Position numbers and translations under genes: made by a program
In this document: positions 1-64,000 of the stretch, one piece after another
How positions within the stretch are numbered: the stretch's first letter is position 1
Layout of the letters: the number at the start of each line of letters is the position of its first letter
From: Oegoconia quadripuncta
Lineage: Eukaryota > Arthropoda > Insecta > Lepidoptera > Autostichidae
Reading direction: 5' to 3'
NCBI GenBank assembly: GCA_949316235.1
Contig: OX438750.1
Span: 14,882,865-14,946,864, forward strand
Length of the DNA stretch: 64,000 nucleotides
Notes under the pieces: model-generated
What the model was told of the DNA's origin: nothing
Database searches by the model: none
The model's input: the letters and a program-made list of their open reading frames with translations, nothing else

Positions 1-703
1 CCGACTTCAAAAGTCATTCTTGCTGAGTTCGTTATCCGTTGATGACATATCCAACTCCATTTCCTTTGAGTGATCTCCTTATGTCAAAGGCGTACTGGTC
101 GCATTACAGCCACCATATGATATTGAAGATGGTTTGCCATCAAAACAACTCTTAGGCTCGTATTACAGAGTATTTATTACTCAAGCAGAGATCTCCACTT
201 GAGGACAGTTAAAAAGGGGCAGCTTTATGTAACTTGTAAATCGGCATCTCTTTCTAACTATGCTTAGCGCAGATCTACGCTTGAGGAACATTCTGAAATA
301 TAGGCCTTAGTATTGTTCTCAGATATTTACTGACGAACACTTGCAGCTTTTGCATAAATAGTTTTACTGAAGGACTGACTTCATATACGACTTTAATAAG
401 GGATGTTACAAAATCGCCCGCAGTGAATTTAGGTGGCCTTTGCTTTCTACAAAGTGGGCAGCAATGATTGGTGTTTAATTATTCTCAGATGCCCCTTAAT
501 TATGCAGCTACAAGTCGCTCAGAGAGTTGTCCTTTTATAAGCTAATTTTAGTCGTATGTCAATGGTTCCAATGTTGGTTTCTAAGGACTTTTGTATTTTA
601 AATTCCATTTATTGACAACTCTTTTTTTACAATAATTTGCATCCATGTTTATATAAATACACAATTCGAAGCAAGTTTTACAAAGTTCCTTTTCAATTCC
701 CAG
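1..703. other. NPC1 intron with a short Harbinger-like MITE
   Basis: AT-rich intron left of the first visible NPC1 exon. No coding signal. It holds a 158-base MITE at 152-310. Confidence 0.6.
152..310 (+). mobile_element. Harbinger-like MITE, family N, short copy
   Basis: Ends TTAGGCTCGTATTACAG and ATATAGGCCTTA are inverse to each other, with TTA on both sides. Internal AGATCTACGCTTGAGG and CAGCTTTATGT match 26262-26563. Confidence 0.6.
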
Positions 704-894
704 GTCCCGTATTGAGCGGGAATATTTCGATTCCCATTTCGAGCCGTTCTACAGGACCGAGATGCTTATTATCAGCTCAAAGAACCTGCCCAAGATCGAG
801 TACACGACGGACGTTGGCGAGACAATGGAGTTCGGTCCGGTGTACCATTCGGAGTTCCTGCTCAAAGTGCTTGATCTGCAGACCAGGATTATGG
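704..894 (+). CDS. NPC1: NPC1 exon: start of middle luminal domain
   Basis: Acceptor CCCAG before 704 and donor G|GTAAGA after 894. It begins with one base that completes a codon and ends in phase 1. It contains [20 protein letters not shown], which matches the family pattern EYFDxHFGPFFRTEQLII at the start of the middle luminal domain, then [10 protein letters not shown]. The preceding exon lies to the left of the window. Confidence 0.95.
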
Positions 895-3800
895 GTAAGA
901 TTGATTTGGATTCCCGGCTTACCTCTTCCTGATAAATAAAATATTTTTATTACTATGTATATTATTATGTGTCCGCTATTTCGACTCCTACAACCGCCAG
1001 GCGCAAACGTGGCAGACCGCGAAAACGGTGGAGAGACGAGCTTGACAGTTTTAATAAGGGATGGTTTGTGCTCGCCAAGAACAAAAACGACTGGAAGCAG
1101 ATGAGGGATGCCTTTGCCCAGCAGTGGGACACTATGGGCTCTTAATAATAATAATTTATATTAAGTATTATAATTTATATTAAGTATTGAGGTCGCAGAT
1201 TCAAATCCCGCTAGGGGCATACATGAATACGGGCTTGTGGTACCCAATGTTTGCCGTTATAATATGTATATATAAACCGAGTAGTAGTAATCTAGGTGCC
1301 GAGTGTGAAACGAGATGACGCTAATATCTACTAATTAAAATATTCCTTCCAGCCCTTGGCAATGACAGCATAAAGGACATATGCTTCGCCCCACTATCGT
1401 CGCCCTTCGAGGGGCCCATGACGCCGGAGAAGTGCGCGATCCAGTCCATCTGGGGCTGGTGGCAGGACGACGCCTCCCAGCTGGAGGAGGACATTACGGA
1501 CAATAAGTACCTGGATAGGGTCCTCTCGTGTAGCAAGTAAGTGGTTCCAACTATAACAGCTGTAATATTTTCTTATACCAGACTCTTCCGATATATGCGG
1601 TTAACTACCGGTGTCCTATGCATAGTTTTACGAATCAGTTTACGCTAGCAGAGAGTCAGAATACTCTCTGTGTCTATACGGCTCACAATCCTTCGTATGT
1701 TTACCGCTCAACGCAGCGGACGCCCTTACCTTCTGTAAGTGAACTCGTTGCGTTCGACAGCAGTGAGCTGTCCCCTCGGTGTGGATCCTCGCCTTCCGTT
1801 AAGACACTGATTTCCAGCTAGTGCCCAGAGAGAGAAAGGGAAGGTACCAGTCTAAAAAGCGGCAGTAATAACAATATGTGTCTTGTATAACAAAAACAAG
1901 ATTACATATAAGTCACGACCAAATAGCCAGAGGAACCCCAAACATAAGCATTTGGGTGTAACAAACATTAAAAGTTCAATGCTTGAAACAACATCCACGT
2001 TTCACCTTTCGAAATATACAGAATGCACACGTGACAGGGGGTGAGCCCATCACCTTCAAATTGTGTCTTTTTGTGGTAAAATCCAATAGTCTCCTGACTA
2101 CGACATCCAAGGGAAGAATCGGGTTGGTTCAACTCTTTTTTTTTTTGGCAAATATGTGCTTGAAAGTTTTAACTAAATATCTCAATTACCCCATTTCTCT
2201 TGTCAGCAACCCGTTCGGCCAGACGTGCATGGCTCTGTATGGCGGGCCGGTGTTGCCAGGGATAGCTCTCGGCGGCTTCCTCACGCCAGGGGAGCCTCTC
2301 ACTAAGAACTCTCGCTTCCACGAAGCCACGGCGCTCATATTGACGTTCCTGGTCAATAATAAACATGACAAGGAGTTGGTGAGTTAGCTTTATAGTATAT
2401 GTAGATGTTGCCACGCCCCAACGGGGTGCATGTTTCATGCCTCTCGTTTTTAAAATCTTTGTGAGTGCAATAAATGGTTGATGGATTGATTGAAATGTAT
2501 GTATAGTAGTTTTACACAATACTTTTTCTATTTATAACAATAGATAAAAAACTGATAATTACGAATGTTTGCATTTATTTTATACAATATTTACAAAAAA
2601 AAAATATATGGGCCCATAATCCACCACGGGAACCCTGTGCGGATTGGTTGATTAGTGTCTGACTTGTGGCCACCTGACAGTCAGTGTTTTTAAGCCGCCC
2701 CTGTAAGCCACTGACTTGGCTTAACGAGTACCTTTAGTTGAATTAGTATCCATAATTACAAGTCTAGTTAGTGTGGAACTAGATGGCGCTATGTCCAATA
2801 TCCAAGGATATTTATTTATGTGGTAAATCTAAAAATAAACATAATTTATGTTAGTAAATTACATTCAAGTAAAACATGCGAGTATATATCCTGTGACCTG
2901 AAACTATTTATAGTTTGGTAGAAGTATTAGAATAATTATTTATTTATATCAGCCTGTAACGTCCCACTGCAGGGCAAAGACCTTTTCTCAATAGGAAAGT
3001 GTATGGGTCATAATCCACCACGCGCGCCCAGCCAATTGATGGATTCGTGTCAGATGAGAATATTGTAACACAAAAATTTATTTAAATTAACATTCTACTG
3101 TTGTTTCCAGCTGAAACCGGCGCTCGAATGGGAGAAAATCTTCATCAATTTCATGAAGAACTACACAGAAAACGAAATGCCCGATTTCATGGACATAGCG
3201 TACACGAGCGAGCGATCGATAGAGGACGAACTCGATCGCGAGTCGCAGTCGGACATCTCCACTATACTCGTCTCTTACTTCATCATGTTCGCGTATATTG
3301 CCATCTCGCTCGGACGCTTCACTACTTTCTCAAGGCTGTTGATTGATAGTAAAGTCACTTTGGGGCTTGGAGGTGAGTTTTATTTAGTTCTTACAATTTA
3401 GTCTGAAATACCTCAGTGCTTAAAGACGAAAGTCATGAATGTGAGTTATCGATGATGACTTATGGGCCTCATAATGGGATGTCTCACCATGGGCCTTAGA
3501 AGAAAGGTCCAGGTCACGCAACCACCTATGGAGAGGGCGATACTCGGCGTATTACTGCATGATCGAATCAAGCATCCTTCCTCCACCACCTCAATGGCTC
3601 AATGTTTGGTTGGGTTTACGATTCGGAGGTCGCGGGTTTGATCCCCAGCAGGGTACATATTTAGTACTCGGTTTGGTTGGTGGTATGGCGTTTTAAATGT
3701 CCACCTGGCTAGCTACCACCATCTTATCTAAATCTGCCGCCAAACTACAATGTTATTAGCATTGTTGTGTTCCGGTTGTCGGAGACAAGATAGCCAGTCC

Positions 3801-6800
3801 CCCAAATAAGATGGGGTTCCACCTTCGGCCCCATCTTCACTTAACATCGGGTGTGATTGAGGTCAAGTGCTAACCCGGTGTGCATAAAAAAAAAAGAATG
3901 AAGAAATCCATAGACAAGCGAAAGTCACCGACATAGCCCAGCGGATTAGTAAGTTAGAGTGGCAGTGGGCAGGGCACATAGTTCCTGAGTGGCATTAAAA
4001 TTCTAGAGTGGAGACCAAACATAGGGAAGCGCAGCGTAGGACGTCCCCTCGCAAGGTAGCGGGAAGTCGCTGATTGCAAACCGCTTCCAACAGCTCGCTC
4101 TGAAAATCGAGGAGGCATGTTCCGCAGTGGATATTAATCATGATGAATACTTCCATAAAAATACATATAGAAACAATTCCTTTTTCCCGATTAATAGTTC
4201 GGGTTATACATTATAAACTAGCTGTTGAAATCATTCTGATGCTCCGTAATGACTTGACTTAAAAACACACTTTATAATAAGTATGACAATGATACTTCTA
4301 AAGTATTTAAAAAGCAAAAAACCCGACAGCATACTTTGTATTTTGCGGGCGACATTGAATTTTTTACTATAAAATGTCCTATGACACTAGGTATCAAGAC
4401 GAATAAAACACACCTTGCACTTCAAAATCGCTCAAGCCGTTTAGTTTAGGCTACGGGAGGTAACAAACATCTACATACATACACACATTCAATCAAAAAA
4501 TACTACCCTCCTTTTTGAGCAGTCAGGTAATAAACATGGTTTTTAATATACTATAATTCGTCATCCCCAGGAGTGCTAATCGTGATAGCGTCAGTGGTGT
4601 GCTCCATCGGGATGTTCGGCTTCGTCGGCGTCCCGGCTACCCTGATCATCGTGGAGGTGATCCCGTTCCTGGTGCTGGCCGTGGGCGTGGACAACATCTT
4701 CATCCTGGTGCAAACCAACCAGCGGGAGGGCAGGAGGCCTAACGAAACTGTCGCCGAGCATATTGGCAGAACGTGAGTATTAAGCAATCTTACATCGAAA
4801 ACTGGGGTTTGATCTTTGACAATTTCATATGGATAAGTGGCAACTCCATTTCATCCAGAGACTCTAAATAGCTCAACAAAAAATGAATATGCATTAGGTC
4901 TGTATGGTTGGTGGTGGGGCATTTTAAATGTCTGCCTGGCTAGCCACCGCCATGTTATCTAAATCTGCCGCCAAACAGCAATGTTTTCCAAATCCAAATC
5001 GCAGCAGCGACCCGGAAACCCCAACACATTAGGGGGACTGGCTATCTTATCTCTGACAACCGGAACACAACAATGCTATTAACGTTGCTGCTGGGCGGCA
5101 GATTTAAATAAGAGTGTGGTAGCTAGCCAGGCGGACATTTAAAATGCCCTACCACCAACCAAACCGAGTACTTAAACATGTACCCCGCTGGGAATCGAAC
5201 CCACGACCTCCGAATCGTAAACCCAGTGTTGTTTTGAGCCACGGAGGCGGTTTGATGCATCCTTATTGTTTTTTTTTACAGGCTGGGTCAAGTAGGACCC
5301 TCAATGTTCCTAACGTCGGTCTCCGAATCCGTTTGCTTCTTCCTCGGCGCACTGAGCGACATGCCGGCCGTGAGAGCGTTCGCGTTATACGCTGGCGCTG
5401 CTCTACTGGTCGATTTCCTTCTCCAAGTCACCTGCTTCGTAGCGCTACTAGCCATTGATACTCACCGACAAAACGCTAACAGGTAACTCTTTGATCTGCG
5501 TTAGTATTAATTCCTAACGCAAAAGAGATGTGTTTCAAGCGAGAGGTTTCTTTATTCTACTATTAACCCTTGCTTACCTATTTCCCTAGGTTCGACGTAT
5601 TCTGCTGTGTGCAAGGCACTAAAGCGGAGCAGGCTAACGACACCGGCGAAGGTGCCCTCTACAACCTATTCAAACACGTTTACGTGCCGTTCCTCATGAA
5701 GCGGGAAGTCCGCGCCTCTGTTATGATCATATTCTTCGCTTGGCTCTGCTCCTCTGTCGCTGTAAGTCATTATTTTTTTAAATACTCTACGATTTAGCGT
5801 TTGATTACAATCATTCACACATTAAGTGAAGATGAGGTCGAAGGTGGAAGCGCTTGGGTGACTGGTTATCTCAACTCAAGCAGTGGAAATACAACAGTGC
5901 TATCAATATTGCTGCTTGGCGGAAAATTTAGATAAGGTGGTGGCTACTGGCCATGCAACATTTAAAATGAAAGAAAATAATCTATATTACATAATAAATG
6001 TTACAAAACAAACTAACATATAAAACATAAAAAAGAACAAACTGCAGAACAATTACAGACAAATACTAGCATTTTGTGTGTCACTGTGGCAAAGAGGAGT
6101 AGGACTTAGCATAATGCTCAGCGCCAAGAACTGGGCAACTATACTAATGATAATAATACTATATAATACCAGTATAATATAGGTATGAATAAATCAAATA
6201 AAAAAATGCTTTATTTCGTAAGTTATAAGAATCACATTTGAAATCGTCATGACATACAGTTATCGCTAGTTATCACTAGGCAGTCTCCCTAGAGAACTAT
6301 TATTAAATTGTTTATTATACAAGTACGATCATAATAACAACCACTCTAACCACATCATCGGCCTCGAAGTATAAGATTGAATTATTTAACACAATTCTTT
6401 TTGTTGTTCCTATAGATAATTTTTATATTGAGTTTTGAGGGTAGACTTAGAATACCCTACCACCAATCAAATCAAGTAAAAACATGTAAACTTTGTTCTG
6501 TAAACCTTGTGTTGTATACATAGAGCCACAGAGTCAGTTAAAGTATATACACTCATTCTTTTTCTATAAAAGTCGCTATGGGACATGTCTTGCTCCATAA
6601 TGGAGGAGAGACCCAGTAACACAGACCTATTATCGATAACACCCATTACGGATTGGTGAGACTATGCAACAAACTACTTTATTGTGGAGCAACATGTGAC
6701 TTCTAGACCAAAACCCAACGCCTCAATTGGTAATATACATTTAAGGTACGAATTCAGCTGAAAATTGTTCGCCTGCCATACTAACCAAGATAGCCAGTTC

Positions 6801-9800
6801 TCCGATCTGCGGGTCAGTACGCTTCCACCTTCGGTCTCATCAGGTGTGATCGAGATCAAGTGCTAACTCGTTATGCATGATAAAATTCGACTATGGTTCT
6901 GTTACGGAGCGGGTCCACGAGATGTTTTAAGAAAAAAAGAAATATTACTGAAACTTAATTATAGAAATTATTAAAATTAATTATACAGGTGCCTACTACG
7001 AAGTTCAAACCCAGTCTGACGTGTAAAACCTAAAATCAATAATGCATCCGCAATCGAAGGGAACTGCAACGTTAGCAATTATATTTATTATATGCTGAAG
7101 GGTTATTTCCATTATATCAGTTCCTTGGAGAAAGTTGTTCGTAATCAAGAGTGGCGAAACCAGTTAATGGGAATTACACAAATTCATCCTGTATAAAGGC
7201 TGTTTACTTCCACAGGTGGCGCCTCACATAGAGATAGGTCTCGACCAGGAGCTCTCGATGCCCCAGGACAGTTTCCAGTTGAAATATTTCCAACATCTAA
7301 CGCGTTACCTCAATATTGGCCCGCCAGTCTACTTTGTAGTCACCGAGGGCCTGGACTATTCGGATAAGGGGACGCAGAATATGATATGTGGCACCAGGTT
7401 CTGTAGACAGGACAGTGTCGCTATGCAGCTGTATTCTGGTGAGTCATTTTAATCTATCGTATTTACTTATGGTAAAATGGTGTAGGTCCAAAGCAGGGTT
7501 TGTTTAATGATTTATTTTTAAACCTAAATCATAATCTTAAAAAAAACGGTTTTCATAAGGAGCAAAACCAAATGGATTTTGAATTATTCTGTAGGTGGTG
7601 GGTGGAATCAATCTCAATACAATTTCTTTCGATATTGTTTAATTAAAGGACATAATAGTTATGCAATATTTTAGTGAGGATTCTGGTATCACGTGATGCT
7701 GGAATCCTCATTTCTCATACACAGATAGGTACTGTTTTACCTATAATTACAAATTGTATTAAAAATAACTATGCCTAAATAGAAAATGGATGATATGTGT
7801 CCATATGTGAATATGGACCATCATCCTTGCGATGCGAGGCTCTGCTTCAACAGTAGGGATGGGATATAAGGCTGTTTTTGTTGATGAAAATATCGTAAAT
7901 ATCATGATATACATCAAAATATCTGATATTTTGTATCCGACTTCTGCGAGTCCTGATTTATAGTTACTTTTTACCATACTTGAGTGACGGAAACACGTAT
8001 ATCGATAGAGAAGACTTTTGACTGTTTTAACATGTCTACAGCTTATCGGGCACCGAACGAGACGTACATAGCACAAGCGTCCAACTCCTGGATGGATGAC
8101 TTCTTTGACTGGGCCGCGTTGTCTAAATGTTGCAAATACTTCCCATCCAACAGCAGCTTCTGTCCCAATAGCGCCTCCGGTAAGTATTGTCTCAAAATTT
8201 ATTTGGAAAAACTTTATATGCCTATAGCAGGATAAGTCTAGAGTTTGATGTCCTAGTAAGACAAAACCTTTTTGTGTACTAAAACTGTCTAAAACATCTA
8301 AAATAAAGGACTGACGAAATAAGTACGGGATAATACGATATTGTAAAATTACATATTTCGGTTAAAGAAACTGTACAAATACCCTTTCGCTTGCCGTTCC
8401 GAATTTACATGTTTATGCGTTCTCTGCGTCCTACCGCCTGCACCAGCACTCCAGCGAAGGACATAACAGACGGATGGTAGTTGCAGATAAAATAAGAATA
8501 ATTATCAATTAAAAACAAGACTTAGATTATAAATTAAAATTAGCATGGACAATTATGATGTCGTCTGACGTCCGCCATATTGGGTTTTTGTGACATCCCC
8601 TATGTACTATTTTTGAAATTCTCGTGATGAGATCTATCCTATCGTGTGTCACTCACTACCGTCATCCCATAGCTAAAATCGGTTAAGAAGTGTAGACTGT
8701 ACGAGGAAACATACATACTTACGCGAAACACATTATTCTCATTTTCGTAGTGCCGTTGTCGGCTAATAAAGTAATAAGACACACCTATTCCCAGATTGTC
8801 AAAGCTGCAACATTCCGCTCTATGGCCCTGAGGCTCGGCCCACAAAGTCCGACTTCCAGCGCTACGTCCCATTCTTCCTCCAAGACAACCCCAACGAGGA
8901 CTGCCCCAAGGCCGGCCACGCTGCCTACTCTCGAGCCGTCAACTACAAATTCCTTGACAAAAACAAGACTGTGTCCAAAATTGGAGCCACTTACTACCAA
9001 GGATACCATACTGTCCTGAAAACGAGCCACGATTACTACTCCGCTTTGAGAGGAGCGAGAAACGTAGCCGCAAATCTAACGGAAACGTTGAACAGGAATA
9101 TGAGAGACGAGGGCAAGAATACTACGGTGAATGTGTTCCCGTATTCAGTGTTCTACGTATTCTATGAACAGTATTTGACGATGTGGCCCGATACGCTGAA
9201 GAGCATGGGCATTTCGGTGTTGTCGATATTCATAGTGACGTTCATATTGATGGGATTCGATCTGTTCTCGGCTTTGGTGAGTGATTTTGTGATTTTAATT
9301 ACTTATGACGGCATGGACTGTACCGACGACGTCTAATTTTCTGTCCTTGTTCAAACAAATTTCCATTTTTTACTGCATATCTAAATGACAATTAAAATTG
9401 AGGCGCAAAAGATGTTGCGTGCGGCGACGTCGCAAATAGGTACTTATTAATAACAATTAACAATGAAATATGGTCGATGCCGTCTTACTTGAGACTCTTA
9501 TCTAACATAAGCATCCATCAGGTGAGATTGTAGTCAAACGCAAAACCAGTTTTTAATAAAAAAAAAAAAACTCGAGTCTCCATATAAATGTAGTATTGTA
9601 TTTTAGTGATTTTTTCAATTGATGTCATTTGCATGGAGACTCGACTCGGAACCAATAAATAGAAGAGCATAGAACCTCCTCCCCATTCTGGTTAAAAATT
9701 GCATCGTGTACACTTCATTGGCAATTGTAATACAAGATCTGGTTTCATGTCAGGTTGTGGTGATCACCATCACAATGATCGTGGTGAACCTCGGCGGGCT

Positions 9801-41300: not shown

Positions 41301-44300
41301 ATATTAAATATATTAAAAAAAAATGGAAAACTCTCGAAAGACTGACATCACCGATATACACATCAAAAAAGTGTCAGTTTCCGGGGTTTCCGGGTCAGTA
41401 CGCTTCCACCTTCGACCTCATCTTCACTTAACATCAGGTGTGATTGAGGTCAAGTGCTAACCCGTTGTGCATAAAAAAAGCTAAATATCGTTCACCCGGA
41501 CTGACTATCTTATCAACAGAACAGAACAATGCTATCAACATTGTTGCCTGGCGACAGATTTAGATAAGATGGTAGTATCTAACAAGACGGACATTTAAAA
41601 ATGTCTAACCACCACCCAAACCGACTTAATAAACATGTACCCAGCTGGGAACCGAACCCGCGACTCAAGAAACATTTCTATCAAAAAAAAAAAATTGAAT
41701 CAATCCGTCTCATTCCGTGCGGTTCGTAAAAAGCGACTAAGGGACTTCACATCGAAACATCTCTAGATTTGCACGTTCCAACGGCGATGGGCTCACCACC
41801 TGTCACGTGTGGATTTCTGTATATTTCAAAAGGTGAACCGTGTATCATGTTTTATCATTATCATGACGACCTGTTTGGTGTAGTGGTTAGCACCTCTGAC
41901 CACTATACCAAAAGGTTGCGGGTTCGAATCCCGCTGGGGGCATATGTTTGTGTGATGAATACGGACATGTGTACCCGAGTTACGGATGTTTTCATTTATA
42001 ATAAGTATTTATTTACAAAAAAAAAATGTATTTATGTAGTATACCAACCATCTGGTATCCACAACACAAGCCTATAGTTGCTTAGTGTTGAAATAGATGG
42101 CGCTATGTGTGTGTCTAAGGATATTTTATTTATTATTTATTTATTTATCATTGACAGCCAAAACCATGTTTGGAACAGCCAAACGCTTTGTTTAGGATGA
42201 CAATGGTATTCTGTGCACAAATTATATTTAGGTTAATTTTCGATATATTGGTACGGTAAGGAGCTCTTATTTCGAGCTCCAGGATAAAGCCCGTGACGTG
42301 TAGGTATGTGAAGGGCGAAAAAATATTAAAGCAGTACACCCGATCTATGTAATTTGATTTGTGTAACTATTTATAAAACTAGTCTCCGAGCCGTGGAGCT
42401 TGAGACAAATTTACCAATTGATGCATGTGCCTGCCAATCACAACCATCCTCAATGCCAAAGTAGCGAATACGTGGTTTCTCTCAAATTTCTCAAATACGC
42501 CGTCTCTAAGCGAAACTAATTGCGGAAGCCGTGCTAGATTCGATTAATTGAAATAGTTTTTTTAGTGTTCTCAAGCAGATGTATGTAGGATTTTATTGTC
42601 TCTTTTATTTTTAAACCGACGACCACCGAATTGTTAAATGAGCAATTAATTAAAATACTCACGACGAAGCTTTTAGCTTTCGTTAAAGATAGATTTTATT
42701 TCTAGTGTCCTAGTCTGCGATCTTTGTAGAACAAAATTTTAAACAAGTTTTGATATTAGTACCTACTTATTTCAGACCTTATACGGTAATGAACTATTAG
42801 GTCCTTACCTATAAAATTGGCGTTTTGTATGAAGAATTTCATTAAGACTGTTTTTTGATTTTTGTTTAGGAACGGCAAATCCAAATTTTGCTAAACTTTA
42901 TGTGTATTATCGGATAACATTAAGTTAAGTATAGGCAGCGTTAATTTTTAAGAGTAACCGCTTTATAAAAGTTTCAGCGAATCTAAGAAATGATTATGGA
43001 AAGCACATGAAAAGAGCTCTGTTCAAATTTTTTTATTATGTGATTTAGCCCAGAACTTGCTAACAAAAGTATATCTCCGGAACCTTGAAAAATTAACATT
43101 TTTTGTGGTGTAATAGGTATTTACTGTATTTTGGTGATAGAAATTAAAAATAGTAGGTTGGGTCTAGTAGGTATGCGTGAATTTTTAAATTTAGACTTTT
43201 GTATGATTTTTTTTTATCTAAGTAATATAAAACCTGTTCTTGACAGACGTAAGTAATGTTTTACCGTGAGGAAAATTAGTCTTTATTTCAAGGTCCACGT
43301 GGACGATGTCGCGGCCGGAAAGCTACTTAGCTTATCGAGCAAACTAGGTAGGTAGGTACCTAAGTTTTCTATCGGTCGCTTGGATTGTCACTTATAGTCT
43401 TGGCTCGATAAACTGCAACATTAACTTAACCAATCCGTTGGGCTATGTCACCGATAGAAGTCAGAGAAGAAGAACACAAGTTCTTATGCAGATATCTTAA
43501 TTCGTGATGAGATCACATAGTGAAGCGGCGAGCATCTATAACTCGCTGCGTGACCTTCAGCGGCTAAATTCAACCAATAGTAACGCCTACATTTTCAAAC
43601 TACCAATGGCGATCGGGACGGCAATAATATTGGGTCTTTACCTATGAAATTAGAGTTTTTTTCTTCGTTAATCATTTGTACCAATTCCTGCGATTTTCAA
43701 AGCTATATCCAATTTTGTTTTTTATTTCGAAAATGGAATATTATTTCAAGGTTTCACATGAAATATTTTTTAATTTCTGGGCTAAATCACATAATAAAAA
43801 AAAATTAACAGAGCTCTTTTCATGTGCTTCCCATAATCATTTCTTAGATTCGCTGAAACTTTTATATAGCGGTTACTTTTAAAAATTAACGCTGCCTATA
43901 CTTAACTTAATGTTATCCGATAATACACACAAAGTTTAGCTAAATTTGGATTTGCCGTTCCCAAAAAAAAATCAAAAATGTTTGTATCGAGAAAACAGTC
44001 TTAATGAAATTCTCCATACAAAACGCCAATTTCATAGGTAAGGACCTAATAAAAAGGCAATGTTCTGACTTCTCTCCTACAGATCTCCTCCTCCTGCCCA
44101 AAGGCGTGCTAGCTATAGTATAGCTAAAGTGACTTTTCCGATTACTGTTCTAAAACCGACGTTGACTAAATTTCCTGGCGCAATAAGAAGACATTTTTTT
44201 TTTACTTTCCATTGCTAAGGGGTTCAATGTGAAATATTCAATATCTCTGAAACCAAAGACACTAGAAAAACGACAATATGTAGACTCTACTATGGAAATA

Positions 44301-55408: not shown

Positions 55409-56776
55409 GTAAGTTTTAATCTTAGTTTACAAACAGGCAACTTCAACATTCCTCGGAGTCAACCATCCTGTTTTAAACGGATCCATAAGCTCATTTTATT
55501 ATGCTAAAGATGGCAAAAATCACTGTCTTATTGTGCTAGAAGAGCACGATATAAAAAGCCATATATTAAAAAAAAAATCAGTGTAGAAAAATGAAATTTT
55601 TATCAACTTTATAGTACGTCGTCCTGTGGCTGATATGATGATGACGATAGAGAAATTTATGGAGAAGGCCTATGTTTATTAGTGTACATCCAGTGGATGA
55701 TATGATGATGACTGCTACATCCACCTTACGTCCTCACTATAGTACAAAATCCATCACTAGGGTTTGTGTCTGGCTGGCTACTTACCACCTGATAAGTTTA
55801 TGTTGGCTTAAAGAGTGCCTTCAAGTGAAAACAACTGGGACCAACTATTTAATGTCACCCTCGCACAGAAACCAATGCCACTAGTGGTAACCCAACAAAG
55901 GACTTTTAGACATTTTTAACTTGTTACTAATTCAATTTTATTCCAGGCTTGGCGACTGTAACCACACAATATGATGCAGATGAGGAAGCAGAAGTTGAAT
56001 CACAAGATGACATAGATATTCTCAATGTTGATGAGTCAGAATCTCTCCTATCCAATGTTGTGTCCGATGTGAACAAAACGTTAACAAACCTTTACAATCA
56101 TGTAACTTCAGCCAACATTACCACAGAAAATACAACTCGGACTAGTAACGGAACTAGGAAGTTGGTCAAATGTAGAGATATCACCTATGAGGTTAATGAA
56201 GAAGCCGAGCCATCTATTGAGATAATTAATGCGACTCGGTTAGCCAAGCTTCTACAAGCTAAGCCAGATATTACCAGGAGAGATATGGAAGCTGATTGCA
56301 CTTTAGTACTGTTCTATACTAAAGCTTGTCCATTCAGTGCACATGCCGCTCCACACTACAATGCCCTAGCAAGATCTTTCCCTAATGTAAAAATGGTAGC
56401 TCTTGATGCTTTAAAATATCATGGCATAAACGCCCAGTATGGCATTGTCGGTGTTCCAACTTTAAAAATGTTCCATAATGGGCGACCCGTTGGCAAATTC
56501 AATGGAACAGAATATAACATTTATTCATTTGGTAAATTTATTCACACTATAACTGGTCAAAATCCACATGTGTTGTTAGTTACTTCAAAAGATTTCCAAG
56601 GGCCTGTTTCTAGTGTGGTGGAACAGGAAACAGACTATTTTTTGGTCTTATCATGGTTGTTTATTATTGTGTGTACTGTATACTACTTCATGCAGTCAAG
56701 GTGGTGGAAGATGATTGTTGAGGTGGTGCAGAATAACTGGAGAGAATCTGAAGCTCAACATGAGCACAATGATTAG
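55357..56776 (+). CDS. TXNDC15: Thioredoxin domain-containing protein 15, complete two-exon gene
   Basis: Exons 55357-55408 and 55947-56776 encode 293 residues. TXNDC15 is a single-pass membrane protein with a luminal or extracellular thioredoxin fold; in mammals it is linked to cilia. Residues 1-23 form a hydrophobic signal peptide. Residues 25-90 are acidic, with several N-glycosylation sequons. The thioredoxin domain covers about 125-220: CTLVLFYTKACPFSAHAAPH holds the redox site at 145-148 as CPFS, a CxxS form also known in this family, so a classical dithiol disulfide exchange is unlikely. The cis-proline motif GVP is at 186-188. A membrane helix spans about 249-266 and the short tail is cytosolic. 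The start at 55357 is the only in-frame ATG ahead of the splice. Confidence 0.95.
55947..56776 (+). CDS. TXNDC15: TXNDC15 exon 2: thioredoxin domain and membrane anchor
   Basis: Acceptor TTTTATTCCAG; two bases complete Gly18. The frame then runs without a break to TAG at 56774-56776. It carries CPFS, GVPTLKMFHNG and the helix YFLVLSWLFIIVCTVYYF. Confidence 0.96.
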
Positions 56777-58104: not shown

Positions 58105-58740
58105 TCACTTTAACTCTGCAGGCATTTCACTGCCTTTTAGAGCAGCTAGTATATTTTGTGCTGTCAATTCACTCATTGTATTTCTAGCTTCTATTGAAGC
58201 ACTACCAATATGTGGTAGTACCACACAATTTTTCAACTTAAACAAGGGATTATCCAATGGCAATGGTTCTGGTGTAGTTACATCTAATCCGGCAGCTCTA
58301 ATAGTGTTATTTTGTAACGCATCTATCAAAGCATTCTGATCAACTGTACCACCGCGACTTGTGTTAATAAAAACAGCTGTACGTTTCATTTTCTCAAATG
58401 CACTTTTGTTAAATATTTCTTTCGTTTCGGGAACTAAGGCAGCACAACATATGACAAAGTCACTTTGTGCCAGTATCTCATCGAAAGTAACTTTGGTTGC
58501 TCCAATTTCCTTTGCCTCTTGTTTCGGACTGCGATTGTAATAAAGTATCCTGGATGTATTGAATGCTTTCACGCGCCTAGCGACTGCTTGGCCTATTCTT
58601 CCGAAGCCAACAATCCCGACAGTAGCAGCGGCTAAGCCGGGTCCTGTCATCCATGTCGGCGCCCAAGACACCCAGCCACCAGTTTTGGCTTCCTCCTGGG
58701 CTTCAGGCAAACGACGTGATGTGGAGAGAAGGAGTGCCAT
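58105..58740 (-). CDS. GRHPR: GRHPR exon 3: nucleotide-binding domain and catalytic residues
   Basis: Acceptor AATTTTCAG. The exon opens with ATG, but this is an internal codon: ALLLSTSRRLPEA continues the fold from TAELT of exon 2. It ends with TGA at 58107-58105 and carries GFGRIG and the Arg, Glu and His of the active site. Confidence 0.96.
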   Translation of the reverse strand: MALLLSTSRRLPEAQEEAKTGGWVSWAPTWMTGPGLAAATVGIVGFGRIGQAVARRVKAFNTSRILYYNRSPKQEAKEIGATKVTFDEILAQSDFVICCAALVPETKEIFNKSAFEKMKRTAVFINTSRGGTVDQNALIDALQNNTIRAAGLDVTTPEPLPLDNPLFKLKNCVVLPHIGSASIEARNTMSELTAQNILAALKGSEMPAELK

Positions 58741-61085
58741 CTGAAAATTATTTAATAGTTCAGAATATTTCATTAATGCAAACTAAGGTTTAATCAGTGA
58801 ACTTATTTAAAGATTGACTATGCAGACATATGACTATTTTAAGGAAAATGGATGAACGAAACTTACGCGAAAGTGATATAATGATGCAATGGGTTCTGTC
58901 ACATTGTGGACTGAAAGGTAATAAAGAGGCTGACTCACTAGCGAAGCGTGCAATAACTGAAGGGATGCTTAGAGATGATATTGCACCAGATTACTCAGAA
59001 CTACTCTCCAAATATAAAAAGAAAGTGAAGTGTGCATGGAACGAATATTTTGATGAGAGGTCTAAAGATAAAGGAATCTGATACCAATCAATTCAGAGCC
59101 CCCCGCATACACCCTGGTTTGCCGATCAAAGAAAAAGAAGAATAGAAATCATATAGTTTTAGCTCACACTTGCCACTAAATAAGTTTAGCTATATCATGA
59201 AAAAGACCAGCTTTCCCAACTGTGATGTGTGTGGTATTGTAGAGGATGTGCACCATATATTGGTGGAATGTGTCCGGAAGGAGCACCAACGAAAGACACT
59301 GATGATGGAACAGAGGCTAAATAGACTAGATGGGGGAATATTCAATGAGATCCTAGCACATCCAAAACCGAATGCTACGCAGATTCTATTTGCCTTTGTG
59401 AAATCATCGGTGTCTCGCTAGAATTAATTTTAAATAGATTATGTCAGTAAGAGGTATAAAGTCCCTAAATCAAAACCTAACAAGAAAAAAATATTGACTA
59501 AAAAAAATCTTTTTAAATTCTCATAACTTGGTAACAATAGAATTTAATAATGCCAATTAGGTTAGTAAGTAGTGACTCTGCCTATGAAATCAATGTTTGC
59601 AAGTTCGAATCCAACTAGGGGTAAATGTTTGAGTGATCAGGAGTAGTATTCTGTAGCTCCATCGATAATCATTAAAGCATGACTACAATATTCTTGGTGA
59701 TACATACATAACTTCACAACCTTTATCACAATCAGAGATATCCCAAACATTAGCATTTAGGTGTTCCAAACATTAAAAGTACACCCACTCACCCACAGTT
59801 CACTTTTAAAATTTCAGAAACGTATATGTGACAGTATATGGCCCATCGCCATTAAAACATGCGCATTTATATTGTAGAAAGTCCCTTAATCGCCCTTTAC
59901 AACACCCATGGGCAGAGACATATGCGGAAACAGCACAAAATGATTCTGTCTAATTCAAATTGAAACATGGATGAAAATATGCAATAAGAATACTGGTAAA
60001 CAGATTGATTATTAAACTTACAGTAAGCTCAGCAGTGGCATCCGTCAGCACATCAGGTGTATACCCAACCTTAATGCCCCTTTTATTACATTCTTGTACA
60101 TCAATATGATCATAGCCCACCGATATTGTAGCCACAACCTTCAGTGTGGGTCCCGCTGCATCCAGTAAAGCTTTATCAACCTTGTCTGTTAGAGCGCAGT
60201 AGATCCCCTGGACGCCCGATACAGATTTGAGGAAATCCTCTCTTGGCACAGGCGATGGTTTCTCCCAGAGTGTGACATCACATCTGGAATTGATATTAGA
60301 AATGTTTAATGACAAAATAAATCACTTACTTCATATTAGCTTTGTTTACAACCTTTTTATAACTGTTCACCAATAAAAGAACATTCACCTGATTGATAGT
60401 GGCCTGATTTGGTATCACGAATTCCAAGATGCGTTGATGCTATTTTTATTTAAATTTACTCTTGATGTGTTAAGACAGATACACCGAAAGAGGGAGATTT
60501 CTTAACCTTATATATTATCTATTTGTCATTGACCTGGCCCACTAGCCAGGAGGTCCTTTTAGCAGTTCCATGGACCGGCAGTTTCATTCCTTAGTCAACA
60601 AGCCATACCTGTTTTGCACAGCTTATTAAAGCGAGCACAACATATTTAAGCTGAATGGGGTCTAATTTGATTATAGAATTGTTTTTAAAAAATGTTGCTA
60701 ATTGTACTTTAAACTTGAATAAGTTACACAAAGCAGTTCTTCATTTGAAAATAAGGGCAAGATGCTGGGTCAGCTCACAAGTATTTATTTTGTGCTTGAA
60801 TGTATTTAGATTCAAGTACAATTTAGCAACTGTATCTACATACAGTAAATTTTAATGAATACTATGGTTTGTGAAGTCTGGATCTTAGCGAATAGGACCT
60901 AATAATTTAAAAGTCTACATGATCATGATTTACTTTCAAATATCTTTTGTGCTTGTATACATAACTTAATCCATGAACTTATTTCATGGAATATTTATTA
61001 CTTACTCTTTTCTCAGCAAATCCACGCCACACTCCGGCATATCGGAGCGTGTGACGAACACCTTATATTTCCCTGCGCCGCTCAT
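58105..61085 (-). CDS. GRHPR: Glyoxylate/hydroxypyruvate reductase, complete three-exon gene
   Basis: Exons 61085-61006, 60283-60022 and 58740-58105 give 978 bases, 325 residues plus stop; human GRHPR is 328. The enzyme reduces glyoxylate and hydroxypyruvate with NAD(P)H. The N-terminus has KVFVTRSDMPECGVDLL. VATISVGYDHID and GYTPDVLTDATAELT form the substrate-domain hinge. The Rossmann motif GFGRIG is at 159-164. The catalytic triad of D-2-hydroxyacid dehydrogenases is intact: Arg243 (NTSRGG), Glu272 (TTPEPLP) and His291 (LPHIGSAS). The C-terminus GSEMPAELK matches the family. The gene converges on TXNDC15, with about 1.3 kb and several SINEs between their ends. Confidence 0.96.
58830..59421 (+). 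mobile_element. LINE remnant in GRHPR intron 2: RNase H end and zinc knuckle
   Basis: Two open pieces on the opposite strand to GRHPR. 58830-59081 encodes MMQWVLSHCGLKGNKEADSL, the C-terminal RNase H motif WVxSHxGxxGNExAD. 59170-59421 encodes FPNCDVCGIVEDVHHILVEC, the CxxC...HxxxxC knuckle that follows RNase H in Jockey/R1-like elements. A stop separates them, so it is dead. Confidence 0.75.
59560..59900 (+). repeat. Decayed SINE family B piece followed by family D repeat
   Basis: GTTCGAATCCAACTAGGGG at about 59608 is a decayed family B B-box. 59735-59900 carries CAAACATTAGCATTTAGGTG and GTATATGGCCCATCGCC, similar to 1900-2125. It lies in GRHPR intron 2. Confidence 0.45.
60022..60283 (-). 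CDS. GRHPR: GRHPR exon 2: substrate-binding domain
   Basis: Acceptor TCAATTCCAG, donor ACT|GTAAGT (phase 0). It encodes CDVTLWEKPSPVPRE, GVQGIYCALTDKVDKALLDA, SVGYDHID and GYTPDVLTDATAELT. Confidence 0.96.
60284..61005. other. GRHPR intron 1
   Basis: AT-rich; no coding signal or recognised repeat. Confidence 0.5.
61006..61085 (-). CDS. GRHPR: GRHPR exon 1 with start codon
   Basis: ATG at 61085-61083, donor GA|GTAAGT (phase 2). It encodes MSGAGKYKVFVTRSDMPECG, in line with the KVFVTR start of the family. Confidence 0.93.
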
Positions 61086-61970
61086 GTTCCTCGCAATACT
61101 ATCCAAAACACAGTTACGTAGTGCACCAGACAGCGGGCCAATGCCTCTATAAATCATGTATCGACACAATAGGTTTCTTCCAAATTAGTCCAGGTGATTT
61201 CCGTGTTTGCTTTGTGATAATTCGCGACAAGGCCGCTCAGTTTTCCGGTAAGTATTTAGGAGCTTGCGATTTTTTATTAGCCTCACTTTTGAAAAGCGAT
61301 GGTTTAGCCAAATAAATCGTTAAGTGCAGAGCGGCAACGGTAGTCAGAATAATTTTCCCTCTTGTGGATTTTATGAATGCTATAGCGCTCATAATATGTG
61401 GAATAGTTTGCACAAGATCAACAGGGGAAACTAAAAAAGTTTCAATCACATCAAAAAACTCAATAGCAAAGAGTATAGTAACTATTTACCGAGAAAGAGT
61501 GGCAACTCCGTGGTTAAATTTGCATGTATAGACAATGCTGCTGCCAGCGATTGGTTGAGGAATTAAATCTATCTATACATACCTACGTACACTGATTATA
61601 TAGGTAGAAACTGGGTTTAGAAATAGGTATTGTTGTTTATGAGGAAATTTTTATTTCTCATAACTAATTTCTTTAAATTAGCTATGAAAAACAAGTATAA
61701 CAAAAACAAACAACAAATTAACAAAAATCTGAACTTTTACAAAAATTTCAAATGGAAATCGACGTTGACTGATAGCTCCACATGACACCACCCACCGGTA
61801 AGATGGCGGCTGCTGCCACAGAACACTAATAACGGTTAGTTCGTCAACCGCAGTTCAGAGGTCGCAGTCTGCTATGAAAATTGATGACATTTGAAGTGTG
61901 CCCTCCCTGCTCAATAGTTACTAATGTATATAAAAAAAAGTACTCTGTGGTACTAATAACCTTCATGTAA
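61086..61970. other. GRHPR upstream region
   Basis: Holds the GRHPR promoter, which was not resolved. A strong + strand donor (TTTTCCG|GTAAGTATTT) at 61247 could end an untranslated first exon of a divergent gene. Nothing else is supported up to the P-like element. Confidence 0.3.
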
Positions 61971-61978
61971 GGTTTGTG

Positions 61979-62006
61979 CATGGACTTATTATTTAAACAG
62001 GACTGA
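61979..62006 (+). repeat. Left terminal inverted repeat of the P-like element
   Basis: 28 bases, identical to the reverse complement of 62839-62866. It begins CATGGACTTATTATTTAAAC and is preceded by target copy GGTTTGTG at 61971-61978. Confidence 0.9.
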
Positions 62007-62451
62007 TAACTATCAAAAGAATCATTTAGGAAAATGATCACTATGTCAACGCAATAAGGTATTAAATTGGATGCACCATACACAAAGGCAAATCCGAGCC
62101 GAGAGATAGAAATAACGGAGGCCGTGTGTCTCGTTCTTACATCTTGCCAGCAAAAAAAATGATTATGATCAACAGTTTTGGCTACTCAAAAATTCCATTG
62201 AAACACTTATATTTTTATGTTATTTTAACAATTATAAATAAACAAATAACATTCGCATTAATTTCTTTTCATATATTCTTAAATCAAACAGAAAACATAC
62301 ATTTTTATTTCGATTTTGTTATTTTTATGGTAACCCTGAAAAGCATGTCATGTCATGGCGGTTCGGTGATGGTTCGGTGTGATTTTGAATTTTCTTTGCA
62401 TTAAAAGTTTTTGAAAGTATTTGTTATATTATAACAAGTAAAAGGAGTAAA

Positions 62452-62522
62452 ATGGTGAAAAAGTGTTGCGTTTATACTTGCCCAAGTGAATCCTATGGTG
62501 GTTGCAACATATCTTTCCACAG
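62452..62522 (+). CDS. THAP zinc-finger exon 1 (P-like transposase N-terminus)
   Basis: ATG (context AAAATGG), 23 codons and two bases, donor CAG|GTAAGC. It encodes MVKKCCVYTCPSESYGGCN followed by ISFH, the opening of a C2CH THAP domain (CxxxxC then FHxFP). It lies wholly inside the inverted-repeat element. Confidence 0.7.
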
Positions 62523-62646
62523 GTAAGCTAAAAATAATATTTTTGTAAATCAAAGAAGTAGGATGCCCATGAATTCTTGAAATGAGTCGAAATATGTGAA
62601 ATATGTGTGATTGATTAGGATCCTGACTGTTGTACTATTATTGCAG

Positions 62647-62875
62647 TTTCCCAAAAAATGAAGAAATGCGAAATAAATGGCTCACGCCGGCTAATGTCAA
62701 AACGCCAAAGTTTTTTGACAAATATTTTATTACAACATTTGTCCCAAGTAACAAATATATTGTGGTCACCCTGTTAGACAGAGACAAACGGCCTCTACGT
62801 TACACATCCTGCTCGGCTCGTTTTTCAGCGGCGAGTACTCAGTCCTGTTTAAATAATAAGTCCATGGGTTTGTGA
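62647..62875 (+). pseudogene. THAP exon 2, joined to transposon 3' end by internal deletion
   Basis: Acceptor TATTATTGCAG; one base completes Ser, then FPKNEEMRNKWL continues the THAP fold. After NKWLTP the sequence no longer looks like THAP: the expected Cys-x2-His and the AVPTLF-type end are missing. The frame runs into the right subterminal and terminal repeats and stops at 62873-62875, beyond the transposon edge. This is what an internally deleted P-type element would give. Confidence 0.55.
62839..62866 (-). repeat. Right terminal inverted repeat of the P-like element
   Basis: 28 of 28 bases match the left end in inverse orientation; followed by target copy GGTTTGTG at 62867-62874. Confidence 0.9.
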
Positions 62876-63070: not shown

Positions 63071-64000
63071 ACTTGGACTGTGACCACAGAGTACTATGAA
63101 TATACGGAAAACTGTGACGATGATGTTGAGAAGTCCCATATTCATAGTCAAATTTCTTTATCTCATTCAGTATCGGAAGTTAATTTCAAGAAAGTCGAAT
63201 GGTCTAAATTTACTGAAATTTGTGAACAAGAACTTTCTAATTTTCATAGAAGCTCCGATCCACTCACAGACTATAACAACTTTATTCAATTTTTAACTGA
63301 CATTTTACTAACATTCCCTAAGAAGTCGTATTGCCCTATTAAAAAACGCAAGTATATGGTATGGTGGAATGACATTTGTCATCAAGCTGTACTCCAAACC
63401 AAATTGGCATTTAACTCTTTTAAAAAATTTCCAACTATGGAAAATTATATTTTATATAAACAATTCGATGCAAGGAAAAAAAGAACCTTAATTGAGCAAA
63501 AACTTTTGAGCTGGACTAACCTTTGTGCATCATTTAATCGTATGACTTCCTCTAAAATTATATGGGACCACATTCGTCGATTTAAATTTTCAAAAAATCA
63601 TGTGTCTAATAGCAGCAAAGAGAGCAAACCTCATTTTCTGGATGATGACAATAACGCCCTAGATTTTTTGGACAAAATTGCTTCATCTTGTGCCAATGTA
63701 GCCTCATCTAAATTAACTAAATATTTTTTTTCTTCGGGTTCTTTGCATGCTCAATGGCTTCAAGATCCATTTAAAATAGATGAACTTCTTGCTTCTATAA
63801 GAAATAAAAAGAATACTTCTCCTGGCCCTGATTTTATACCATACGTAGTCATCAAAAATCTGCCACGCCATGCTTTATCAACTCTGGTTGATATTTTCAA
63901 TCAATTATGGATCAATAATGTTATTCCCTCTATCTGGAAAGCTCAGAACGCAGTCCCAAATCCAAAGCCTAATAAAAATCCTAATAGCATAGATTCGTTT
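63071..64000 (+). mobile_element. 5'-truncated non-LTR retrotransposon, reverse-transcriptase frame open to window edge
   Basis: One frame (codons starting at 63071) is open for 310 codons to the last base. It encodes a linker with MVWWNDICHQAVLQTK and then the start of a reverse transcriptase: NKKNTSPGPDFIPYVVIKNL, VDIFNQLWINNVIPSIWK and NPKPNKNPNSIDSF, matching the SPGPDxIPY ... PxxWKxAxxxPxPKP pattern of Jockey/CR1-type LINEs. No endonuclease domain precedes it, so the copy is 5'-truncated. The catalytic YADD box would lie past the edge. Confidence 0.85.

Follow-up and report, generated by a model that had tools for sequence, protein, structure and literature searches.

Introduction

P elements are the classic example of a transposon that sweeps through a species and causes hybrid dysgenesis. 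The end of the Drosophila P element begins with CATG, and internal deletions of P elements originate from incomplete gap repair after excision. In Drosophila melanogaster the element makes 8-bp target duplications, carries perfect inverted ends of about 30 bp as well as subterminal inverted repeats, encodes a transposase consisting of a THAP domain, an HTH and an RNase H domain split by a GTP-binding insertion, and is accompanied by short internally deleted derivatives of 0.5–2.8 kb (the parts of PMC7776569 that deal with this element). All of these traits are also found in the moth element described here, as is the start with GT and the end with AC of the target duplication, for which the motif GTCCGGAC is given for Drosophila in the part of PMC3276498 compared here. 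Outside flies there are few well-described P families for which a full-length source is known, zebrafish being the example in the part of PMC7776569 used here. According to the same part the zebrafish THAP9 transposon resembles the moth element in its P-type transposase, its 8-bp duplications and its many internally deleted copies, but it has 13-bp ends, 12-bp subterminal repeats and 400-bp spacers, whereas the moth element has 28-bp ends and subterminal arms of 47 and 49 bp. The P superfamily was reported in every arthropod of one survey, four Lepidoptera included (PMC6327564, as far as compared here). We found no lepidopteran P family described with its copies and ends in the open literature, repeat databases aside, which leaves their absence unproven.

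Here we analyze a stretch of 64,000 nucleotides from Oegoconia quadripuncta (contig OX438750.1, positions 14,882,865 to 14,946,864), in the following called the window. It almost certainly contains a non-autonomous, internally deleted DNA transposon of the P superfamily, with a full-length relative in the same genome as the presumed source of transposase in trans.

Results and Discussion

Structure of the element

The transposon is 888 bp long (window 61979–62866), and together with its two target duplications it occupies exactly the range 61971–62874 that had been proposed in an initial annotation made from the sequence. Its 28-bp terminal inverted repeats CATGGACTTATTATTTAAACAGGACTGA begin with CATG and agree in 28/28 positions (left end at 61979–62006 on the forward strand, right end at 62839–62866 on the reverse strand), and the flanks on the forward strand show the 8-bp target duplication GGTTTGTG at 61971–61978 and 62867–62874 with 8/8 identical bases. 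None of 100 shuffles gave a match for such ends, even at up to 3 mismatches. From the 608 inverted 14-mer pairs of the window lying no more than 5 kb apart (overlapping shifts counted), two have flanks agreeing in at least 7/8 positions, namely the element itself (8/8) and a pair at 42970–43860 (7/8). Local alignment revealed in addition an imperfect subterminal inverted repeat with a left arm of 47 bp at 62095–62141 (forward strand) and a right arm of 49 bp at 62772–62820 (reverse strand), whose score of 33 was equalled by none of 2000 Markov-resampled pairs (mean 16.3, largest 31). The combination of terminal and subterminal inverted repeats is a trait of the P superfamily. The four observations on which the initial annotation had been built, being the 28/28 ends with CATG, the 8/8 duplication, the subterminal pair and a THAP-type first exon, could all be confirmed, the exon being described next.

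The window copy carries on its forward strand the remnant of a transposase gene. Exon 1 (62452–62522), recognized by a profile match and splice signals, contains the start codon and the beginning of the THAP domain and is followed by an intron (62523–62646, GTAAGC ... TTGCAG) that fits the splice motifs and the gene model of the full-length element, in which it is also present. Comparison with this element shows that the start of exon 2 (62647–62684) is broken off within the THAP domain by the internal deletion. Exons 1 and 2 joined match the Pfam THAP profile above the cut-off (E 1.5e-7, profile positions 1–43 of 87), and neither of the two frames singly gave a Pfam match at E 1. The latter half of the domain, with the second zinc-ligand pair (C-x2-H), is missing from the remnant.

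A 97-aa reading frame within the element is kept in 34/40 copies, with three of the others shortened and three showing no exact match to the splice motif. The product of the Drosophila KP element is a repressor of transposition, which keeps the second half of the THAP domain and a dimerisation region. From the intact frames one might suppose that the short element is likewise maintained as its truncated THAP protein represses transposition, but we regard this as improbable, as the 40 copies are too much alike (mean distance to the majority 0.29%) for the survival of the frame to show selection and the protein includes neither the second THAP half nor any dimerisation region. Most likely the THAP remnant of the short element is a passive leftover.

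Copies and insertion sites

Multiple copies sharing the ends but flanked by different 8-bp duplications had been named as the outcome of a genome search that would confirm the initial annotation, and such copies were found. In the host assembly (622.6 Mb, 45 contigs) the perfect 28-mer occurs 1206 times (600 on the forward and 606 on the reverse strand), the reversed control giving 0 and 0. As there are two ends per copy, the genome contains at least about 600 copies or fragments with a perfect end; among the first 100 end places listed some have no perfect partner nearby. A search with the whole element, in which 40 of 807 first-look candidates were scored, listed at least 41 near-full-length copies; 40 of these, among them the window copy, reach at least 99% identity, and another one has 98%. 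The 40 copies other than that of the window lie in 39 retrieved loci, which form a first set selected by similarity to the window copy. They gave, again with the window copy, 40 elements paired at both ends, all of which (40/40) have an 8-bp duplication, flush in 36 cases and offset by an additional base in 4. The script left unpaired one more copy (L040), which carries a 1-bp insertion in one end and whose flanks CGTCAAAC agree 8/8 by eye, and another locus (L024) harbors two copies in opposite orientation 23 bp apart, both having an 8-bp duplication of their own. Via the THAP exon we found a second set of 28 loci, which contained 25 paired copies, 25/25 with an 8-bp duplication (24 flush, 1 offset by one base), and 3/28 loci remained unpaired. 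Thus, in both sets together 65/65 paired copies show 8-bp duplications, at different places. In 5/65 paired copies (L030, L031, L034, L039 and L087) an additional base separates the duplication from one of the ends, which suggests a slightly imprecise joining. Kolobok and PIF/ISL2EU are other THAP-bearing transposons with TTAA or 2–3-bp duplications, and the paired copies with their 8 bp fall outside of both.

Sites without the insert were sought by comparing 66 joined flank pairs with the sequences retrieved from the genome, which gave 10 matches across the junction, one of them (L010 in L003) representing the same place and being uninformative. We inspected the best 4 of the 9 spanning matches (those of L101, L041, L105 and L098, 93–97.5% identity) and found that in these related repeat copies the element is absent and the 8 bp of the target are present once, with 8/8 identical bases in three cases and 7/8 for L041. 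The expectation of sites lacking the insert was therefore borne out for four other copies but not for the window copy, which has no empty site in the assembly, its joined flanks returning their own two flanks and 38 copies of the repeat on the left. This left flank (61819–61913) belongs to an abundant dispersed repeat and is 97–100% identical to at least 38 other sites, with 40 of the 435 first-look candidates scored. Drosophila P prefers promoters, and a motif AAGATGGCGGC left of the insertion was considered as a gene promoter; it was rejected since the adjoining left flank belongs to the dispersed repeat.

Animals commonly possess cellular THAP genes (PMC10027918, in the part compared here), and an exon of such a gene lying between chance inverted repeats could have mimicked a transposon. 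With 65/65 paired copies bearing 8-bp duplications at different places and with related sites free of the element the probability of this is vanishingly small, and the duplications, the number of ends in the genome and the empty sites already refute it.

The insertion sites of the element share a palindromic motif that spans about 18 bp, AGTnn[GTTnnAAC]nnACT, in which the brackets enclose the duplication. Counted over half-sites, T is found three bases outside the duplication in 59/80 (p 8e-15), G four bases outside in 42/80 (p 1e-11), and A five bases outside in 39/80 (p 8e-4), and the duplication itself begins with G in 46/80 (p 1e-14). The AGT/ACT blocks of the moth motif thus lie 3–5 bp outside the duplication, whereas the Drosophila motifs reach at most 3 bp outside, in logos that span 3 bp on each side and may have missed a wider motif (PMC3276498, in the part compared here). 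The extended motif offers a testable point on how the transposase reads its target.

The two sets differ in size, with 890 bp in 36/40 copies of the first set, and 878–879 bp in 19/25 and 890 bp in 2/25 copies of the second. The longer class is marked by an 11-bp tandem duplication that is absent from the full-length element and was seen in the aligned columns of 39/40 copies of the first and 1/25 of the second set. Copies differ by 0.56% (first set) and 0.75% (second set) in mean pairwise comparison, and because of this the burst appears to be recent, in agreement with the recent movement that had been proposed, and need not be continuing now. The mutation rate of butterflies is about 3e-9 per site and generation, which would put the age of the burst in the order of a million generations, with both the rate and the sampling being rough.

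The full-length relative and its transposase

A search of the host genome for the P-type RNase H domain, in which all 128 candidates were scored, gave 109 matches, and none were found in 14 control genomes. On C17 (~1.5–17 Mb) and C1 (~4–6.3 Mb) such matches are crowded, many of them broken or partial. The first 30 of the RNase H loci (~3.4 kb each) contained no copy of the 28-bp ends at up to 7 mismatches, which at first suggested that the autonomous partner is missing. This was overturned by a THAP search with the protein P0001 from Spodoptera litura. It returned at least 151 matches, with 150 of 1467 candidates scored, and the matches listed were mostly to the first exon; among them two showed 72–74% identity to the second THAP part, both upstream of P-type RNase H matches. 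In this way we identified at C6:11457446–11461802 a complete element of 4357 bp (in the following the C6 element) with the duplication GACTAGAC on both sides and ends that agree with the 28-mer in 28/28 (left) and 27/28 (right) positions. A longer copy encoding a THAP domain and a P-type RNase H had been foreseen at 2.5–4 kb and was found slightly above this range, the Drosophila P element in comparison having 2.9 kb.

The window copy can be aligned with the C6 element over both of its parts. The left part (element bases 1–706, window 61979–62684, forward strand) is homologous to bases 1–696 of the C6 element with 686/708 identical alignment columns and 14 gap columns, 11 of which represent the 11-bp tandem duplication. 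The alignment places a filler of 13 nt (62685–62697, forward strand) at the deletion junction, and it is followed by the right part (element bases 720–888, window 62698–62866, forward strand), homologous to bases 4189–4357 with 168/169 identical positions. Bases 697–4188 of the C6 element (3492 bp) are absent from the window copy, and with the same ends and a P-type transposase in its full-length relative the proposal of a P-like, internally deleted, non-autonomous element is supported. Because of 9 substitutions in 863 aligned positions and the one mismatch in the right end, the C6 copy is not the exact mother of the window copy; it is a close sister of the ancestor and not necessarily the ancestor itself.

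With 1.5 kb of transposase DNA as query for further sources in the host assembly (4 candidates, all scored) we obtained five matches, consisting of the C6 copy, three pieces on C17 (96–99% identity) and a 69% relative on C17. The three pieces sit in two places about 8.8 kb apart and may be read as one interrupted copy. Within the sensitivity of this 1.5-kb search the assembly contains one uninterrupted full-length source. At C1:20928115–20931899 two perfect ends lie 3785 bp apart with a first-exon match and no P-type RNase H match inside, which may represent a long copy that has undergone another deletion or an invasion.

The predicted transposase of the C6 element has 888 aa and is encoded by three exons (bases 464–534, 659–830 and 1260–3683 of the element) with GT-AG introns. 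Its last exon of about 2.4 kb accounts for 807 aa, and the three coding exons with the 2.4-kb last one are a difference to Drosophila P, as is the distant position of the transposase in the tree described below. All five domains scored over the Pfam cut-off, namely THAP (PF05485, 7.4e-19), HTH (PF12017, 2.7e-18), RNase H N (PF21787, 3.3e-34), the GTP-binding insertion (PF21788, 6.9e-38) and RNase H C (PF21789, 6.2e-16), and the scan gave P-type domains only. In the comparison with the Drosophila P transposase structure 6p5a (E 4.6e-23) the catalytic D/D/E residues, which we take to be D230, D303 and E531 after checking the positions on the sequence, are aligned with D, D and E.

This transposase also bears on a different origin of the short element. 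A MITE of the hAT type or of another type with 8-bp duplications might have captured a THAP exon of the host, and hobo is a hAT element. It also makes 8-bp duplications (PMC3276498, in the part compared here), and THAP exons of the same type are present in other moth protein models (P0003 and P0004). However, the full-length relative has the same ends on both sides of a complete transposase with P-type Pfam domains only, the Pfam scan detected no hAT-type transposase in it, and the THAP exons of the window copy are the first exons of its transposase gene model. We therefore consider such a capture highly improbable and, for practical purposes, already refuted by the Pfam scan of the full-length relative. 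None of the outcomes that the initial annotation had named as speaking against it, which were a lack of other copies, a hAT or other transposase in the longer copies and THAP exons belonging to a cellular gene, was seen, and the element can be classified as a member of the P superfamily.

How this P-superfamily element moved and became shortened we infer from known P elements. A transposase from a full-length copy, either the C6 one or a lost or unassembled sister, would bind to the terminal and subterminal repeats, excise the element and integrate it at strand breaks in the target that lie 8 bp from each other, preferably at the palindrome of about 18 bp, and repair of the resulting 8-nt gaps would give the target duplication. 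The short derivative may have arisen by one internal deletion with filler, as after incomplete gap repair following excision, and would then have been amplified in trans to several hundred copies.

Phylogeny and other P families

Using the 807-aa last exon as query, 7994 candidate proteins were scored and 106 of them are relatives at E 1e-10 or better, the nearest being 91% identical. The nearest named relative with the full domain set is P0019 from Euphydryas editha (54% over 84% of the query), which has the THAP and all P domains. From the same species P0074 is related in part, with 78% identity in a stretch covering 19% of the query, and P0002 has the same THAP type joined to a stretch that by eye resembles the start of the third exon. 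These three proteins and P0001 from Spodoptera litura are annotated as THAP-type, THAP1-like or unnamed and were likened by protein alone. As the nearest protein relatives are lepidopteran, the assignment to a lepidopteran-type genome was also correct on this basis. In Diatraea a zinc-finger protein model starts with the same THAP type, as does a ZZ-domain protein of Amyelois, and in Colias AAA-type domains are linked to a P-type transposase (P0003, P0004 and P0070); these joins are either captured transposase exons or fused gene models. An exact 22-mer of the end had 0 matches in viral contigs and 0 in a collection of genome contigs, and for P0001 6 pattern stretches were found in viral contigs, none of which was confirmed.

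A tree of 29 rows places the C6 transposase next to the 91% protein (100/100) and within a clade that includes P0019 (100/99), at a great distance from Drosophila P. Three other families of the host genome, represented by L063, L067 and L075, group with Drosophila P (100/100), a placement that is less sure than the support figures suggest because Drosophila P and L067 have long branches. Besides the C6 element the genome contains five other groups of P-type loci (L056–L061 and L067–L078), whose copies are 99.4–100% identical over 0.8–3.4 kb and lie on different chromosomes. When one member of each group is compared as a protein, the identity does not exceed 39% between groups and 44% to the C6 element, and because of these identities they are separate families, two of the five grouping with Drosophila P in the tree. 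Three further P-type groups show equal scores and frame lengths (774, 788 and 780 aa). Judged from the near-identity of their copies, the host genome seems to have seen recent movement of several P families.

A lepidopteran P family had been expected to be of interest, and the family is indeed new, but its novelty is smaller than supposed with the superfamily already surveyed in Lepidoptera (PMC6327564, in the part compared here). As far as the open literature shows we apparently deal with a new family of a known kind of transposon, and what stands out is that several P lineages appear to have been active recently at the same time. Quite possibly, and we put this forward tentatively, the moth harbors a live multi-lineage P system outside flies, in which deeply separate lineages, some of them grouping with Drosophila P and others not, moved recently side by side, with one short derivative at 600 or more copies, one uninterrupted source and a palindromic target of about 18 bp that is undescribed for Drosophila P in the literature compared. 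One uninterrupted source with hundreds of short dependants and other near-identical families would make it a natural system for studying the spread of P elements, their parasitism by their own deletions and their control.

Other features of the window

The inverted-repeat pair at 42970–43860 has long near-identical ends and flanks agreeing in 7/8 positions (TTTATAAA/TTTATATA) and is probably another DNA transposon. At 63071–64000 an open frame of 310 aa runs off the window and by eye resembles the endonuclease/reverse-transcriptase region of a non-LTR retrotransposon, the frame giving no Pfam match. Long frames are also present at 8770–9336, 55931–56776 and 58105–58782, which by eye resemble NPC1, a thioredoxin-domain protein and a glyoxylate/hydroxypyruvate reductase, respectively. 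Finally, the 888-bp element is flanked by a perfect 13-bp inverted pair AGTACTCTGTGGT at 61939–61951 and 63083–63095, 1131 bp apart.
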